This document shows positions 7,560-14,229 of a stretch of DNA of 64,000 nucleotides, in pieces. Both the position numbers and the translations under genes were made by a program. How positions within the stretch are numbered: position 1 is the first letter of the stretch; every line of letters begins with the position of its first letter. This stretch comes from Paenalkalicoccus suaedae. GTDB lineage: Bacteria > Bacillota > Bacilli > Bacillales > Salisediminibacteriaceae. The stretch is taken from positions 1,364,001 through 1,428,000 of the forward strand of contig NZ_CP041372.2 in the NCBI RefSeq assembly GCF_006965545.2. Reading direction: 5' to 3'. The notes beneath the pieces are model-generated. The model made no database searches, had not been told where the DNA came from, and worked only from the letters and a program-made list of their open reading frames with translations.

Positions 7560-9512
7560 CTACAGCTTGTCGTTAAACCACGTCACAAGCTCATCGAGTC
7601 GCTCTTGTCTCAAATAAGGCTTCCCGCTTCTTGATAGCTCATGGTTTGACTCTGGAAAACGAACGAAGCGGACATCTTTCTCTCGCATTTTAAGGGCTAT
7701 ATATAGCTGTTCGGCCTGCTCAATTGGACAGCGATAGTCAAGCTCCCCGTGCATGATTAATAAAGGCGTTTCGATGTCATTCACATAACGCAATGGCGAG
7801 TGTTCCCATAGCTTGTCCGGATCGGCCAAGAAATCAGCGCCAACCTCCCATTCCGTAAAGAAGTAGCCAATATCACTAACACCGTAAAAGCTGATCCAGT
7901 TAGAAATACAGCGAAGTGTAGCTGCTACTTTAAAACGATTATTTTTCGCAACAATCCAGTTTGTCATAAATCCACCGTAGCTACCACCAGTGACCCCAAG
8001 CCTTGTTGTATCAATCCACGGGTTTTCTTCCAGTACGGCATCGGTGAAGGTCATTAAATCATCGTAATCCATGCCACCGTAATCCCCTCGCACAGCATTC
8101 ACAAATTCCTGTCCATATCCGTGGCTCCCTCTCGGGTTAGAGTAAAATACGGCGTAGCCTTGTGCGGCAAATAGTTGCATTTCATGGAAGAAGGTTTGCC
8201 CATACATAGCATGTGGTCCGCCATGGATCTCTAAAATACCAGGATAAGTTGCGCCTTCTCTAAACCCATACGGTTTTAAAAGCCATCCTTGAATCGATAA
8301 ACCATCTGAGGCCTTTATTATCATTTCTTCAGGCTCTTCAACATGGACATCCTTTAGCAAGTCCTCGTTAAAAGCAGTTAATGGCTTAAGCTTAGAAGAA
8401 TCTAACGACAGCGTATAAAGCTCACCAGGCCTAGTAGGAGAGGACACACCTATTACACCAGTATCTCCCTCTAAAGAAAATGCGTACACATGATTATTCT
8501 CAGACGTTACGCGAGTAATTTCTCCATCTAAACCAACGCGTACGAGCTCTGTGGCGCCATTTTTGCTACATAAGGTGTAAATACTATCCTCATGCCAAAC
8601 TGGCTCAGAGTAAGCCATACCGCCTCTAATATCGCCAATCATCACGTCTGTCAAATGCTCATCGGATGATTTTGTTATGTTACGTAATTCTTTTGTGGCG
8701 AATTCGTACGTCCAAAGCTTTTGATACGTTGCACCTTTAAACGCACGCTCATGTCCTAAAATAGCCAGATAGCGTCCATCAGGTGAATAGCTTGCTTGCG
8801 TAAAGGAGCCGTTGCTTGCTGTGATTTTCTCTAACTCTTTTGTCTCCATATCGAATAGATATATGTCAGATAAAATATGCGCATCTCCTTCAAAGTTTGC
8901 AAAGAGCACGATCTTTTTTGCGTCTGGCGAAAATCCAGAAGGGGTTAAATCGACTGATTCATTCGTTAAAACAGTCGTTGTATTCGTTCCAATATCGTAA
9001 GTAACAAGCTGGTTTGTTGCATCCGTAAGGAATCCTTTTGCATCAGACTTATAGGCAAGTCTTGTTATAACTTTCTTTTGCGACTTCGAGCTTGTTTGTT
9101 CATCAACTTGATCTCCGTCTTTCTTGATTGCAGTCGTAAATAAGATAGTGCTTGAATCTGGAGACCAAATTGGTTTACTGACACCATTTGTAAAAGAGGT
9201 TATTTTTTTAGGTTCGCCACCATGTGTAGACTGAATATAAAGCTGAGGCTTCTTATCATCGTGCTTTAAACCGGTAAACGTAATCCACTGCCCATTTGGA
9301 GAAAAGGCTGGTGCCTCGATACGTCCATCACCAAACGTCCACTGTGTAGCCACAGGCTCATCTATATCCTGCACAAACAAATGCGACTCGTATTCGGATT
9401 CTGTATTAATCGTTTGACGTATGTAAGCAACCTTCCCGCTATGTAAATGTGGATCTTTTATTACGTGAAGGGATTCTAAATCTTTCGCTGTTATCGCTCG
9501 TTTTTGCATCAT
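7560..9512 (-). CDS. S9 family prolyl oligopeptidase / acylaminoacyl-peptidase-like
   Basis: The 650-residue protein has an N-terminal seven-bladed beta-propeller region (about 1-390), with repeated SPDGRY and SPDSSTI type strands of the WD40-like type. An alpha/beta hydrolase domain follows. The catalytic triad is visible as S511 in GGSYGG, D592 in GELDYRCP and H624 in ESNHE. It is probably a cytoplasmic serine peptidase acting on short peptides, since the propeller excludes folded proteins. No signal peptide is present. The ATG follows CTAGGAGGCAGT. It is transcribed divergently from the manganese-binding lipoprotein gene; no functional link is evident. Confidence 0.9.
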   Translation of the reverse strand: MMQKRAITAKDLESLHVIKDPHLHSGKVAYIRQTINTESEYESHLFVQDIDEPVATQWTFGDGRIEAPAFSPNGQWITFTGLKHDDKKPQLYIQSTHGGEPKKITSFTNGVSKPIWSPDSSTILFTTAIKKDGDQVDEQTSSKSQKKVITRLAYKSDAKGFLTDATNQLVTYDIGTNTTTVLTNESVDLTPSGFSPDAKKIVLFANFEGDAHILSDIYLFDMETKELEKITASNGSFTQASYSPDGRYLAILGHERAFKGATYQKLWTYEFATKELRNITKSSDEHLTDVMIGDIRGGMAYSEPVWHEDSIYTLCSKNGATELVRVGLDGEITRVTSENNHVYAFSLEGDTGVIGVSSPTRPGELYTLSLDSSKLKPLTAFNEDLLKDVHVEEPEEMIIKASDGLSIQGWLLKPYGFREGATYPGILEIHGGPHAMYGQTFFHEMQLFAAQGYAVFYSNPRGSHGYGQEFVNAVRGDYGGMDYDDLMTFTDAVLEENPWIDTTRLGVTGGSYGGFMTNWIVAKNNRFKVAATLRCISNWISFYGVSDIGYFFTEWEVGADFLADPDKLWEHSPLRYVNDIETPLLIMHGELDYRCPIEQAEQLYIALKMREKDVRFVRFPESNHELSRSGKPYLRQERLDELVTWFNDKL

Positions 9513-9624
9513 ACTGCCTCCTAGTAAGAATATTTCGACTATCTAAATAATAGTAGTGTACCTTACTATGCCTATAATGTAAACGAAGTCATAGTAACCC
9601 TTGTTACGACTATGACTATCTCGC

Positions 9625-9653
9625 TTTACAAATAAGAAAAAGGGCGCTATAAT
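9625..9653 (+). promoter_or_regulatory. SigA promoter of the metal-binding lipoprotein gene
   Basis: TTTACA at 9625-9630, a 17-bp spacer and TATAAT at 9648-9653. The predicted start is near 9660, about 120 nt before the coding region and just upstream of the MntR-like site. Confidence 0.7.
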
Positions 9654-9670
9654 CCTAAACATAAAGAAAA

Positions 9671-9687
9671 GTTGCCTTAGGGAAACT
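9671..9687 (+). promoter_or_regulatory. MntR-like operator
   Basis: GTTGCCTTAGGGAAACT closely resembles, from memory, the manganese-responsive MntR sites upstream of B. subtilis mntA and mntH (TTTGCCTTAAGGAAAC type). It lies about 11-27 bp downstream of the predicted transcription start, where a bound repressor would block initiation or early elongation. Confidence 0.65.
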
Positions 9688-9778
9688 TTTTTTGTTGATT
9701 CAAACAAACTTAGTTGTGTGCACATTTTAAATGATTGCGCATATAGATTCATTACACGCCTATTATGAGGAGGAAATT

Positions 9779-10672
9779 ATGAAACGTACAGCATTATTTT
9801 TAGCAGGGTCAGCGTTATTTATCTCAGCTTGTAGCAATGAGGACGCATCAAATGAACGTGAAGGTATTTATGTCACAACTAGCTTTTCTGTTATTGGAGA
9901 TTTTGTTGAGCAGGTTTTGGGGGAGCATGGGACAGTTGACTACCTCGTGCCAATTGGAGAGGAACCTCACGAATACGAGCCGGTGCCAAGTGACTTCCGT
10001 AACGTAAGTGACTCGGAGGTATTTTATACGAATGGTTTAGGGCTTGAAGAGTGGTTAAATCGCGTTGTCGATAATGCGTCTGAGACAGATATTGTAGAAT
10101 TATCTGAGGGCGTGACGGAGATTCCAATTGAGGGTGAGGGAGCGCCAGATCCTCATGCATGGCTATCACCTAAAAATGTGAGCTATTACTTAACAAATAT
10201 TGTAGCCGATTTATCTGAGCGATATCCGGAGCACGCAGAAGACTTTGAGGCAAACGCAGCTAATTATCAAGAGCAAATTGATGAACTCATCCTAGAGATG
10301 GAAGAGAGCTTTGAAGGTATTGAGGAAGAGAAGCGTTTAATTGTTGTAAGTGAGAATGCATTTAAGTATTTTGGAGAGGACTTTGGTTTTGAAACGGATG
10401 GCATTTGGGAGCTTAACTCGTCTGAGGAGGGCACTACTGGACAAATTAATCGTGTGATCGATGTGATAAACGAGCGAGAGATTCCTGCCGTCTTTGTCGA
10501 AACAACGGTAGATCAGCGCTTCATGGAGACGATTTCGTCTAACACAAATGTACCTATTGCTGGAGAAGTGTATACCGATGCAGTAGGCTTAGAGGGATCT
10601 GGAGCCGAGACGTACCTTGACATGATACGTCATAATGCCACCGTCTTTAGTGAGGGACTTACCGAGCAGTAA
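9779..10672 (+). CDS. Manganese/zinc ABC transporter substrate-binding lipoprotein (MntA/PsaA type)
   Basis: The 297-residue product has a lipoprotein signal peptide with lipobox ISAC (C18) and the two-lobed metal-binding fold of cluster A-I binding proteins. Predicted ligands are H64 (EEPHEYEP), H126 (DPHAWLS), E202 (SENAFKYF) and D277 (VYTDAVG). Glu as third ligand is the pattern of the Mn-type PsaA/MntA proteins; zinc-type ZnuA proteins usually have His there and a His-rich loop, which is absent. The start ATG at 9779 follows GAGGAGG. No ATPase or permease gene is adjacent, so this is an orphan component. The MntR-like operator supports manganese. Confidence 0.85.
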   Translation: MKRTALFLAGSALFISACSNEDASNEREGIYVTTSFSVIGDFVEQVLGEHGTVDYLVPIGEEPHEYEPVPSDFRNVSDSEVFYTNGLGLEEWLNRVVDNASETDIVELSEGVTEIPIEGEGAPDPHAWLSPKNVSYYLTNIVADLSERYPEHAEDFEANAANYQEQIDELILEMEESFEGIEEEKRLIVVSENAFKYFGEDFGFETDGIWELNSSEEGTTGQINRVIDVINEREIPAVFVETTVDQRFMETISSNTNVPIAGEVYTDAVGLEGSGAETYLDMIRHNATVFSEGLTEQ

Positions 10673-10674
10673 CG

Positions 10675-10703
10675 TTGAGAAATTCGATAATCGTTGGTAA
10701 GAT
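10675..10703 (+). promoter_or_regulatory. SigA-like promoter for the HesB-like selenoprotein gene
   Basis: TTGAGA at 10675-10680, a 17-bp spacer and TAAGAT at 10698-10703, 37 bp before the ATG at 10740. The gene could therefore be transcribed on its own as well as by read-through from the lipoprotein gene. Confidence 0.5.
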
Positions 10704-10739
10704 AAAGGAGTAAATACATTACATCATTGAGGTGAAAGT

Positions 10740-11024
10740 ATGAAAATTACAAACGAAGCAAAAACGTATATCGAAGCACTCATGCAGGAGCATGGTACGA
10801 CGAATATTAAGATTTTTGCAAGTGGTGTTGGCTGAGGAGGTCCTCAGTTAGGACTGGCGCTGGATGCGCCGGCAGAAGATGATATTGTTGAAGAAGTTAA
10901 CGGTATATCTGTAGCCTTTGACAAGCTCGTATACGGTCAAACAGATGGTATGTCGCTTGACTTTAAAGATACGGAAGACGGTGGCGGTCTAATAATGAAT
11001 TCTGGTAGCGATGGTTGCTGCTAA
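10740..11024 (+). CDS. IscA/HesB-like protein with in-frame TGA, probable selenoprotein
   Basis: An ATG at 10740 behind GAGGTG opens a frame that meets TGA at 10833-10835 (codon 32) and continues in the same phase to TAA at 11022-11024, 94 codons in all. Upstream reads MKITNEAKTYIEALM and IKIFASGVG; downstream reads GGPQLGLALDAP, VNGISVAFDK, LDFKDTED and a C-terminal SDGCC. This is the compact IscA/HesB-like fold. The GPQLGLALD strand and the C-terminal Cys pair are family hallmarks, and the TGA falls at the loop before GGPQ, where homologues keep a metal-binding Cys or selenocysteine. HesB-like selenoproteins are a recognised class. A hairpin at 10854-10872 could be the SECIS element. TGA serves as a normal stop elsewhere here (gpr, rsmE). 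If selenocysteine machinery is absent, the gene would be a pseudogene. Confidence 0.8.
10836..10872 (+). promoter_or_regulatory. Candidate bacterial SECIS hairpin
   Basis: Starting 18 nt after the TGA, CTGGCGC (10854-10860) pairs with GCGCCGG (10866-10872) as a 7-bp stem closed by the loop TGGAT, with a G at loop position 2. The distance from TGA to the apical loop is about 25 nt, within the range known for bacterial SECIS elements. A competing short palindrome, TGAGGAGGTCCTCA, starts at the TGA itself. Confidence 0.5.
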
Positions 11025-11028
11025 AAAT

Positions 11029-11067
11029 AAAGTGGGTTTATCCTTTTAGGATACCCACTTTTTTTGT
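11029..11067 (+). terminator. Intrinsic terminator after the HesB-like gene
   Basis: AAGTGGGT-TT-ATCC pairs with GGAT-ACCCACTT around TTTTA, and seven T residues follow. Its position just after the TAA at 11022 supports reading the gene through the TGA. Confidence 0.9.
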
Positions 11068-11079
11068 ATGATGATTTCC

Positions 11080-11238
11080 CTACAAATAGTTTTTAAGTAC
11101 ATACTTTAGAGGAATCTCTTTTTTCTCCTCCAGGATCTTTTTCTCTTTAGGCGGGGATTCCTTCTTACTATTGATCGTCCAGACCTTCGAGGTATCATTT
11201 GGTAAAGGCTTATTCCAATCTTGGCTCATCTTATCCAT
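11080..11238 (-). CDS. Small charged protein of unknown function (52 aa)
   Basis: A 52-codon frame on the minus strand, preceded by the strong ribosome binding site GGGAGGA five bases before the ATG. The product begins MDKMSQDWNKPLPND, has a Lys/Glu-rich middle (KESPPKEKKILEEKKE) and ends LKYVLKNYL. There is no membrane segment, signal peptide or cysteine. I do not recognise a family. The good start context and bias towards charged residues suggest a real gene. It converges with the selenoprotein gene, whose terminator lies just beyond its stop. Confidence 0.55.
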   Translation of the reverse strand: MDKMSQDWNKPLPNDTSKVWTINSKKESPPKEKKILEEKKEIPLKYVLKNYL

Positions 11239-11380
11239 TCCTCCCTTCAAGCGTACTCTTAATAAACTATGCGAAAAAGTAAAACAAGCTTAGGTAAGAA
11301 CCCTATGCTCGCTTCCTTTTTTCTCTTCTACATCTTTTCTGATAGAATAGAAGGTGACTTGATAAAGAGGAGGGGCTCGA

Positions 11381-12352
11381 ATGACGCAATTACGCCCGTT
11401 GGGGAAATCAGACATAAAGCTAAGCCCATTAGGCCTTGGCTGCTGGCAGTTTAGTAAAGGGAATAATCCGATTGGAAAGTATTGGAGTACACTTGAAGAT
11501 GAAGACATGAAAGCGATCATTCAGACCTCTTTAGATGGAGGTATTAACTGGTTTGATACTGCTGAAATCTACGGAAAAGGAGAGTCTGAGCGCACGCTCG
11601 CATCTACGCTCGACAAACTCGACGTACCGTTTGAAGATGCGCTAATTGCGACTAAATGGTGGCCATTGATGCGTAAGGCTGAGTCTATTACGCAAACCAT
11701 TCATGCAAGAATGGATGCATTAAATCAGCGTCCTATTAGTCTTTATCAGGTACATCAGCCATTTTCGCTTTCCTCTGTGCAAAGACAAATGGAAGAGATG
11801 GCGTCTTTAATTGATAAGGGTCTAATTCAGTCAGTTGGTGTAAGTAATTTTTCTGCAAAAGCGATGCGAGAGGCTCATGCTGTGCTTGAATCATACGGCA
11901 TTCCACTAGTCTCTAATCAGGTGAAATACAGCCTGCTTGATCGTTCTATCGAAAAAAACGGCGTACTAGACGCGGCAAAAGAGCTTGGAATATCCATCAT
12001 AGCCTATTCACCACTAGAGCAAGGCCTACTTACAGGTAAATATCATGATGATCAAGAGCTATTTAAATCGCTTTCTGGACCAAGGAAATACATGGGTAAA
12101 TACAAAGGCAAGCAATTAGAAAAAACAAGGTCATTAATTGAATTGATGCGGGATCTCGCTTCAAAATATAATGTTACGATCAGTCAGGTTGCTTTAAATT
12201 GGATGATTCATTATCACGGAGAGACTGTATTTGTGATTCCAGGGGCATCAAAAGTAAAGCATGCGAAAGAAAATGTTGGTGCGATGAGCTTTAAACTTTC
12301 TGATACCGAGCTGTTGCAACTATCAGACGAAGCTTGGCGAGTAGGCAAATAA
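11381..12352 (+). CDS. Aldo/keto reductase
   Basis: A 323-residue NADPH-dependent aldo/keto reductase with the full catalytic tetrad: D59 and Y64 (FDTAEIYGKGESE), K92 (IATKWW) and H125 (YQVHQPF). SVGVSNFS and the C-terminal cofactor segment VIPGASK are present. The sequence resembles the IolS/YccK-like branch (AKR11) more than the short diketogluconate reductases. Substrate cannot be read from sequence. The ATG follows GAGGAGGGG. It lies 16 bp upstream of dapF on the same strand and probably shares its transcript. Confidence 0.88.
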   Translation: MTQLRPLGKSDIKLSPLGLGCWQFSKGNNPIGKYWSTLEDEDMKAIIQTSLDGGINWFDTAEIYGKGESERTLASTLDKLDVPFEDALIATKWWPLMRKAESITQTIHARMDALNQRPISLYQVHQPFSLSSVQRQMEEMASLIDKGLIQSVGVSNFSAKAMREAHAVLESYGIPLVSNQVKYSLLDRSIEKNGVLDAAKELGISIIAYSPLEQGLLTGKYHDDQELFKSLSGPRKYMGKYKGKQLEKTRSLIELMRDLASKYNVTISQVALNWMIHYHGETVFVIPGASKVKHAKENVGAMSFKLSDTELLQLSDEAWRVGK

Positions 12353-13404: not shown

Positions 13405-14229
13405 TTATCTCTTATTCATTTCACTTGGTTTTGGTCCTTTACGGATACCGCGATCTAAATTGTGAATTAGTTCCATTTCGTCGTCAGTAAGCTCGAAATC
13501 AAATACGTCGAAGTTTTCCTGTATACGCGATGGCGTTACGGACTTAGGAATGACAATGGAGTTATTTTGCAGATGCCAGCGTAAAATAACTTGTGCACCT
13601 GTTTTATTATGCGACTCTGCAATTCCGTGAACGATAGGGTGATTAAGAACCTCTCCACCTTGCATTAATGGACTCCATGCTTCAACGAAAATGTTATTTT
13701 CGTGGCAGAATGTTTTAAGCTCATCTTGTGCGAGGAACGGATGACACTCTACCTGGTTAAGTACCGGTACAACGTCGCATTTATCAAGCAAACGCTGTAA
13801 ATGGTCAATATCGAAATTACATACGCCGATCGCTTTTACTTTTCCATCGTGGTAAAGCTTTTCTAATGCTTTGTACGTGTCGACATATTCATCAAATTCA
13901 GGAGTTGGCCAGTGAATTAAGTATAGGTCTACATAATCTAAACCAAGCCTCTCTAAACTTGCGTCAAACGCTTTTAGCGTGTTATCAAAGCCTTGATCGG
14001 AATTCCACACTTTAGTTGTAATAAATAATTCTTCGCGTGGTACCTCGCTTTCTTTAATGGCTTGGCCTACACCTTTTTCGTTCTGATAAATCATGGCTGT
14101 GTCGATGGAGCGATAACCGACTTCAAGGGCGTTCTTTACCGCTTCTGCTGCGTCTTCATCTGGTACTTGCCAAACGCCATAGCCTAGCTGCGGCATTTTC
14201 AAACCATTATTTAATGTTACAAAATCCAT
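13405..14229 (-). CDS. Aldo/keto reductase, 2,5-diketo-D-gluconate reductase-like
   Basis: A 274-residue AKR of the short AKR5-like group. The tetrad is D43, Y48 (SIDTAMIYQNE), K73 (ITTKVW) and H106 (YLIHWP). The signature IGVCNFDIDHL and the C-terminal IVIPKSVTPSRIQEN cofactor loop are intact. Close Bacillus relatives (YvgN/YtbE type) reduce glyoxal, methylglyoxal and other small carbonyls; a role in carbonyl detoxification is inferred from them. The ATG at 14229 is preferred to the further upstream in-frame start because AAGGAGTG precedes it. Confidence 0.88.
   Translation of the reverse strand: MDFVTLNNGLKMPQLGYGVWQVPDEDAAEAVKNALEVGYRSIDTAMIYQNEKGVGQAIKESEVPREELFITTKVWNSDQGFDNTLKAFDASLERLGLDYVDLYLIHWPTPEFDEYVDTYKALEKLYHDGKVKAIGVCNFDIDHLQRLLDKCDVVPVLNQVECHPFLAQDELKTFCHENNIFVEAWSPLMQGGEVLNHPIVHGIAESHNKTGAQVILRWHLQNNSIVIPKSVTPSRIQENFDVFDFELTDDEMELIHNLDRGIRKGPKPSEMNKR

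Follow-up and report, generated by a model that had tools for sequence, protein, structure and literature searches.

A HesB/IscA-like gene with an in-frame TGA almost certainly encodes a selenoprotein and is paired with a manganese/zinc-type substrate-binding protein gene

HesB-like selenoproteins are an accepted family, for which an excerpt of PMC5029168 gives 90 proteins in 86 organisms. A table in PMC13188914 assigns them one selenocysteine (Sec) each, in the motif UxGP. An earlier survey, as excerpted, counted 11 HesB-like selenoproteins and listed three families with three selenoproteins for Firmicutes/Bacillales (PMC1794560). According to the bSECIS model as outlined in PMC13188914, the RNA element has an apical loop of 3–9 nt with a G in its first two positions, an upper stem of 4–16 bp and a distance of 16–37 nt from the UGA. 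A second group of described systems bears on the surroundings of the gene reported here. Excerpts on the Bacillus subtilis manganese regulator MntR state that the mntH recognition sequence contains TTTGCCTTAAGGAAACTC (PMC9861239) and that the mntH site is a single high-affinity site (PMC11275975); a further excerpt proposes a different MntR consensus, said not to match the earlier one (PMC10448178).

The window, that is, the whole stretch of 64,000 nucleotides analysed, contains on its forward strand a frame at 10740–11024 that encodes 94 residues (MKITNEAK...GVGUGGPQLGLALDAP...SDGCC) and ends with TAA at 11022–11024. Its single TGA, at 10833–10835, is codon 32 and belongs to the motif UGGP, which fits the HesB-like UxGP. 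A Shine-Dalgarno-like GAGGTG was located at 10729–10734 on the same strand. The frame, its TGA and TAA and the GAGGTG were all as given in the preliminary description of this DNA. Standard ORF rules list no ORF of at least 60 amino acids at 10740–11024, as would be expected of a decayed gene or a sequencing error, in which translation does end at the TGA and the sequence beyond it is a relic. Against this, coding constraint was alike on both sides of the TGA. In the 18 of 27 family TGA loci that were compared, differences at codon position 3 versus positions 1 and 2 were 0.565 versus 0.276 before the TGA and 0.552 versus 0.244 after it. The frame is beyond chance, because the same TGA occurs in orthologues, the sequence is protein-like on both sides and the position-3 excess is present on both sides. 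The stop-like codon that seems to interrupt the gene is almost certainly decoded as selenocysteine by the bacterium, which leaves the gene intact.

The two parts could instead be translated separately, as a 31-residue peptide and a downstream ORF. A GGAGG does follow the TGA, and in 14 family TGA loci a downstream TTG opens a frame of at least 55 codons. In the window, however, the frame after the TGA continues as GGA GGT CCT CAG TTA GGA CTG GCG CTG, with no ATG, GTG or TTG near the GGAGG, and the IscA-like fold described below spans both parts. We consider separate translation vanishingly improbable and a single selenoprotein the preferred reading.

The preliminary description had proposed a search for selA, selB, selD and tRNA-Sec, and all four were present in the genome of the window (4.04 Mb, 3 contigs, 99.89% complete). 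In profile searches, selB scored 381.1 bits, above the cut-off. The tRNA-Sec gene scored 59 bits (gathering score 47), had the anticodon TCA (tRNA-Sec(UCA)) and was located about 120 bases from the start of selB. The same stretch of the genome (L021) contained selA (507 bits) and selD (415.1 bits), the latter with an in-frame TGA of its own read through (KAGUGCKIGPADL). selD occupies L021:9651–10700 on the forward strand; standard calling starts it too late because of its TGA at 9699–9701 (KAGUGCKIG), and the stretch after this TGA folds with z −3.16. Adjoining selD, on the reverse strand at L021:9273–9512, is a SelT/W/H-type (SelW-like) gene with a TGA at 9480–9482 (CMMU; 57.1 bits, cut-off 34.2), for which a SECIS of its own was not evident by plain folding (z 0.45, 131 of 200 shuffles as good). 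About 0.8 kb from the tRNA-Sec gene, L021 also carries a tandem repeat, an ORF of repeated units (MFLNLNLCSPFQIYVPRYEVMDFVIATPRV) at 13689–14084 on the forward strand. Two tRNA-Sec genes per genome were observed in G083, G103 and G166.

TGA orthologues were detected in 27 of 35 genomes of the same family, and all 27 were read; alignment A1 covers 22 of these loci. tRNA-Sec and selB were each found in 29 of the 35 genomes, and 26 of the 27 TGA genomes had both. The exception, G018, is a 76%-complete assembly in which neither tRNA-Sec nor an above-cut-off selB was found and whose TGA copy leaves the frame after about residue 76. Five genomes (G009, G010, G023, G029 and G030) lacked both the machinery and a TGA match, and three of the 29 with tRNA-Sec (G011, G015 and G016) had no TGA gene. 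A sample of the order yielded 78 TGA matches in 70 of 299 genomes (E ≤ 1e-12); each match was read individually, and each had its TGA at residue 32. Sixty-nine of these 70 genomes had tRNA-Sec, and the remaining one (G065) had selB at 373.7 bits. tRNA-Sec occurred without a TGA homologue in 68 genomes, and neither was found in 161. The co-occurrence gave a Fisher p of 7.6e-28, with the 299 genomes counted as independent and relatedness uncorrected. A sample of the class had a match in 37 of 398 genomes, with nine TGA genomes outside the order. Four of the nine were read: three (L071, L074 and L079) had TGA at residue 32, and L069 had Cys there, its in-frame TGA falling at residue 63, an Arg position in close relatives. 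As L069 shows, a row flagged for TGA may carry it elsewhere, and the position was therefore checked individually in the rows read. A sequencing error in a single genome cannot account for a TGA that is shared by 27 of the 35 family genomes and by 70 of the 299 from the order.

Homologues without the TGA had Cys at the residue-32 column in all 17 cases read (three within the family, 14 more distant). The alignment proposed in the preliminary description thus gave Sec-TGA or Cys at residue 32 in every relative read. From this comparative evidence, recoding of the UGA as Sec is strongly inferred. The relatives with the TGA gene include Salipaludibacillus neizhouensis DSM 19794 (L053, 52%), an organism that NCBI places in Bacillaceae. 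The suggestion that selenoproteins are rare in Bacillaceae was not borne out: tRNA-Sec was present in 29 of the 35 genomes of the family and in 137 of the 299 sampled from the order, so Sec use in the sampled order is common, not rare.

The same description had pointed to 10833–10880 as the place to look for a SECIS, and a SECIS-like hairpin was identified there, at 10854–10872 on the forward strand. The hairpin has 7 bp and the loop UGGAU (10861–10865), with 25 nt between UGA and loop. In loop length (5 nt), stem length (7 bp), G at loop position 2 and spacing (25 nt), it lies within the bSECIS limits. In a plain fold, 10833–10880 showed no more than moderate stability (z −2.31, matched by 5 of 200 shuffles). 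We then compared 26 family sequences, a set without L036 and L053, which duplicate L035 and L041. Pairing was found in 177 of 182 cells (97.3%). Compensated cells numbered 25, compared with 8.2 ± 2.8 in shuffles, and none of 500 shuffles reached this value. Changes on both sides were seen in four of the seven pairs, and sliding the partner strand abolished pairing. The number of pairs with two-sided changes and the number of pair types were weak measures, because shuffles reached them in 18 of 500 and 203 of 500 cases, respectively. As the hairpin is in coding sequence, a synonymous-codon null based on window usage was also applied; it gave 104.6 ± 4.9 pairs, with a maximum of 121 in 2000 draws, against the 177 observed. 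The Leu codon in the loop was CTG in all 26 sequences, and CTG is the rarest Leu codon in 15 window genes (32/591).

The hairpin was then followed beyond the family. The 76 further TGA loci represent 75 distinct places (L067 = L091) and 63 distinct 45-base stretches, with L155 (= L071) left out. Five to seven of the seven pairs were present in 75 of 75 places, and CTG was present in all 76 loci counted, one place being counted twice. Among the 17 Cys homologues, one (L051) had five pairs and CTG, and the other 16 had at most three pairs and no CTG. L054, a clostridial TGA homologue from outside the order, had three of seven pairs at the fixed hairpin position; two HesB-like frames lie together in this locus, which is from a Clostridiales MAG: one of Cys type (AGMGCSGP) and one of TGA type (AGMGUGGP). 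Because the hairpin is kept in TGA places and absent in 16 of 17 Cys homologues, the comparison indicates that in the Bacilli read the nucleotide structure goes with the TGA rather than with the protein. A decayed gene or a sequencing error is difficult to reconcile with a hairpin that tracks the TGA and not Cys, with the constraint after the TGA or with the recurrence of the TGA, and we judge it very improbable. The TGA could also be passed by plain readthrough or be decoded as another amino acid, e.g. Trp; all that speaks for this is the open frame. However, TGA is still a stop in the window, where it ends two of 24 clear genes, the residue-32 column is Cys in every non-TGA homologue read, and the genome has the full Sec machinery in addition to the SECIS-like hairpin. 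This too is a most unlikely explanation, and decoding as Sec is preferred.

With Cys written for Sec, the protein scored 27.4 bits against Pfam PF01521 (Fe-S_biosyn; cut-off 26.3), and in a genome search reading through the stop it scored 23.9 bits, below the gathering score. The best NCBIfam match was NF038090 (IscA_HesB_Se) with 48.6 bits, under its curated cut-off of 85, and TIGR01911 (HesB_rel_seleno) gave 33.1 bits, under its curated cut-off of 66.35. The protein is not filed under either model because it scores below both cut-offs; the other 28 aligned members probably do likewise, to judge from best E-values of 4.3e-17 and 1.2e-16. An AlphaFold model built from a seven-sequence alignment, again with Cys for Sec, had a pLDDT of 86.4, with residues 90–94 under 50; a single-sequence model (pLDDT 46.8) was discarded. 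The best PDB matches in Foldseek were IscA structures, namely 1x0g (with cluster) and the E. coli structures 1r94 and 1s98, with TM scores of 0.77–0.80 (0.80 for the E. coli structures), and SufA was also found under E 0.001.

In this model, the protein has an IscA-like fold. The fold match, the alignment and the chemistry of IscA suggest that Sec32 occupies the loop in which IscA has its first ligand Cys. The alignment also contains a C-terminal Cys-Cys (residues 93–94, 11016–11021 on the forward strand), which we propose to correspond to the Cys pair that A-type carriers have at this end. IscA ends in CxC. Binding or transfer of an Fe-S cluster by the protein is putative.

Upstream of the selenoprotein gene, at 9779..10672 on the same strand (start inferred, frame open from 9731), is a gene for a Mn/Zn-type ABC transporter substrate-binding lipoprotein (SBP; ZnuA/MntC/EfaA/SloC-like). 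It scored 261.4 bits against Pfam ZnuA, and its best NCBIfam models were Mn/Fe SBPs, under their cut-offs. The two genes are 67 bp apart. Of the 27 family TGA loci, 18 have an SBP gene directly before the selenoprotein gene and nine do not. The pairing was not found in any of the 76 further TGA loci (75 distinct; a few are cut by contig ends, e.g. L136) or in any of 12 Cys loci (three from the family and nine others). The spacing and shared strand suggest a shared transcript, in which the selenoprotein gene is probably the second gene of a two-gene operon.

The preliminary description had placed a SigA-like promoter before the selenoprotein gene. A match with 9 of 12 consensus letters was present directly upstream of the gene at 10675–10703, but 9600–11400 contained four promoter-like sites compared with 4.1 ± 2.1 in shuffles. 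Because the count equals that of shuffles, the match is no evidence, and a promoter directly before the selenoprotein gene was rejected as a candidate. The same scan, overall not above chance, contains a SigA-like candidate upstream of the two-gene unit (TTTACA-17-TATAAT, 9625–9653 on the forward strand, 11 of 12 consensus letters). An intrinsic terminator had also been described right after the TAA. A consensus scan of 9600–11400 found none, but 11020–11068 folds into a bulged hairpin with a run of T's behind it (−17.1 kcal/mol, z −4.15, matched by 1 of 200 shuffles). This fold makes the terminator plausible, as a probable hairpin and T run at 11029–11061 on the forward strand that the simple scan missed. 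For that reason, the absence of a terminator between the SBP and hesB-like genes is weak evidence.

Upstream of the SBP gene, at 9671–9686, we identified an MntR-box-like palindrome, GTTGCCTTAGGGAAAC, predicted to be a manganese-responsive operator. Of its 15 core letters, 14 agree with the mntH recognition sequence of B. subtilis as excerpted from PMC9861239. The recognition sequence used here is the older one, and the consensus proposed in the excerpt of PMC10448178 does not match it. The genome contained a single exact match to the pattern and two further ones with one mismatch; up to one mismatch, the number of matches expected in the window is 0.07. Allowing up to three mismatches, a site was present in 17 of the 18 family SBP–hesB loci, a count that is partly circular because the IUPAC pattern was built after 14 of the loci had been seen; the exception (L041) has a broken-up SBP frame. 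The published mntH site was used as an independent query and gave 61 mismatches over the 18 loci, whereas 200 shuffles gave 100.35 on average and never fewer than 92. Five of the 18 best matches to this query have five mismatches, and at some loci the best match is a site other than that of the pattern. The genome also encodes an mntR orthologue (258.4 bits, cut-off 138), so it has both MntR and an MntR-type site at the promoter, features of an MntR regulon. On account of the 17 of 18 sites, the mntH-query mismatches below the null and the mntR orthologue, an MntR-controlled operon is a reasonable prediction, which suggests manganese control of the SBP–selenoprotein pair.

Taken together, the sequence comparisons make it very probable that the locus is a functional selenoprotein gene with a HesB/IscA (A-type iron-sulphur carrier) fold. 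In the proposed mechanism, SelB and Sec-tRNA(Sec) would read the UGA at codon 32, aided by the hairpin 25 nt downstream. In the 94-residue product, Sec would replace the loop's first conserved Cys and the chain would end in a Cys pair, and its gene would be transcribed second, after the SBP gene and behind the MntR-like operator. The protein would most likely be a metal- or Fe-S-handling or redox protein, in which Sec, compared with Cys, may be the stronger nucleophile and ligand, and in this lineage it may be made when manganese is scarce. In a bolder reading, bacterial manganese homeostasis has the Sec-containing A-type carrier as a dedicated component, and MntR represses an operon of SBP and HesB-like selenoprotein. 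If so, manganese starvation would call up a selenium-dependent metal-handling or redox protein; we hold this reading tentatively, as a possibility with the balance against it. Another reading, which concerns the context and is compatible with the selenoprotein, gives the gene no tie to manganese: the SBP adjacency would be passive and the protein an ordinary Fe-S carrier with Sec. The chances of this are about even. Only some loci of one family show the SBP link (18 of 27, against none of the further TGA or Cys loci), which favours this reading, whereas the MntR-like site upstream of the pair in all but one of the loci, together with the independent mntH-site query, argues for a manganese tie. 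The repeated association of the selenoprotein gene with an SBP gene and an MntR-like site in one family is a concrete and testable hint to function.

The protein shares with the HesB-like selenoproteins of TIGR01911 and NF038090 the fold family, the single Sec, the UxGP motif and Cys forms in relatives; it differs from them in scoring under both curated cut-offs. Annotation that relies on the curated models may truncate or drop the gene for this reason, although members of the clade are common in the order sample, occurring in 70 of 299 genomes. No description of the clade or of the manganese link was found in the literature searched, which comprised titles and abstract openings with partial coverage. 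Compared with the A-type carriers IscA, SufA and ErpA (PF01521), the protein has a like fold (TM about 0.8 to 1s98 and 1r94) and the same layout of one Cys/Sec position in the loop and a C-terminal Cys pair, but its loop has Sec (GVGUGGP) and its C-terminus is CC. Compared with mntABCD and mntH, the MntR-controlled importers of B. subtilis, the locus likewise has a Mn/Zn-type SBP behind an MntR-like palindrome, in a genome with mntR; here, however, no permease or ATPase gene adjoins the SBP gene among the listed ORFs inspected by eye, and the second gene encodes a selenoprotein. The protein is thus of a known kind, the HesB-like selenoproteins, and what is new is its predicted place in a manganese-type operon, confined to part of one family.
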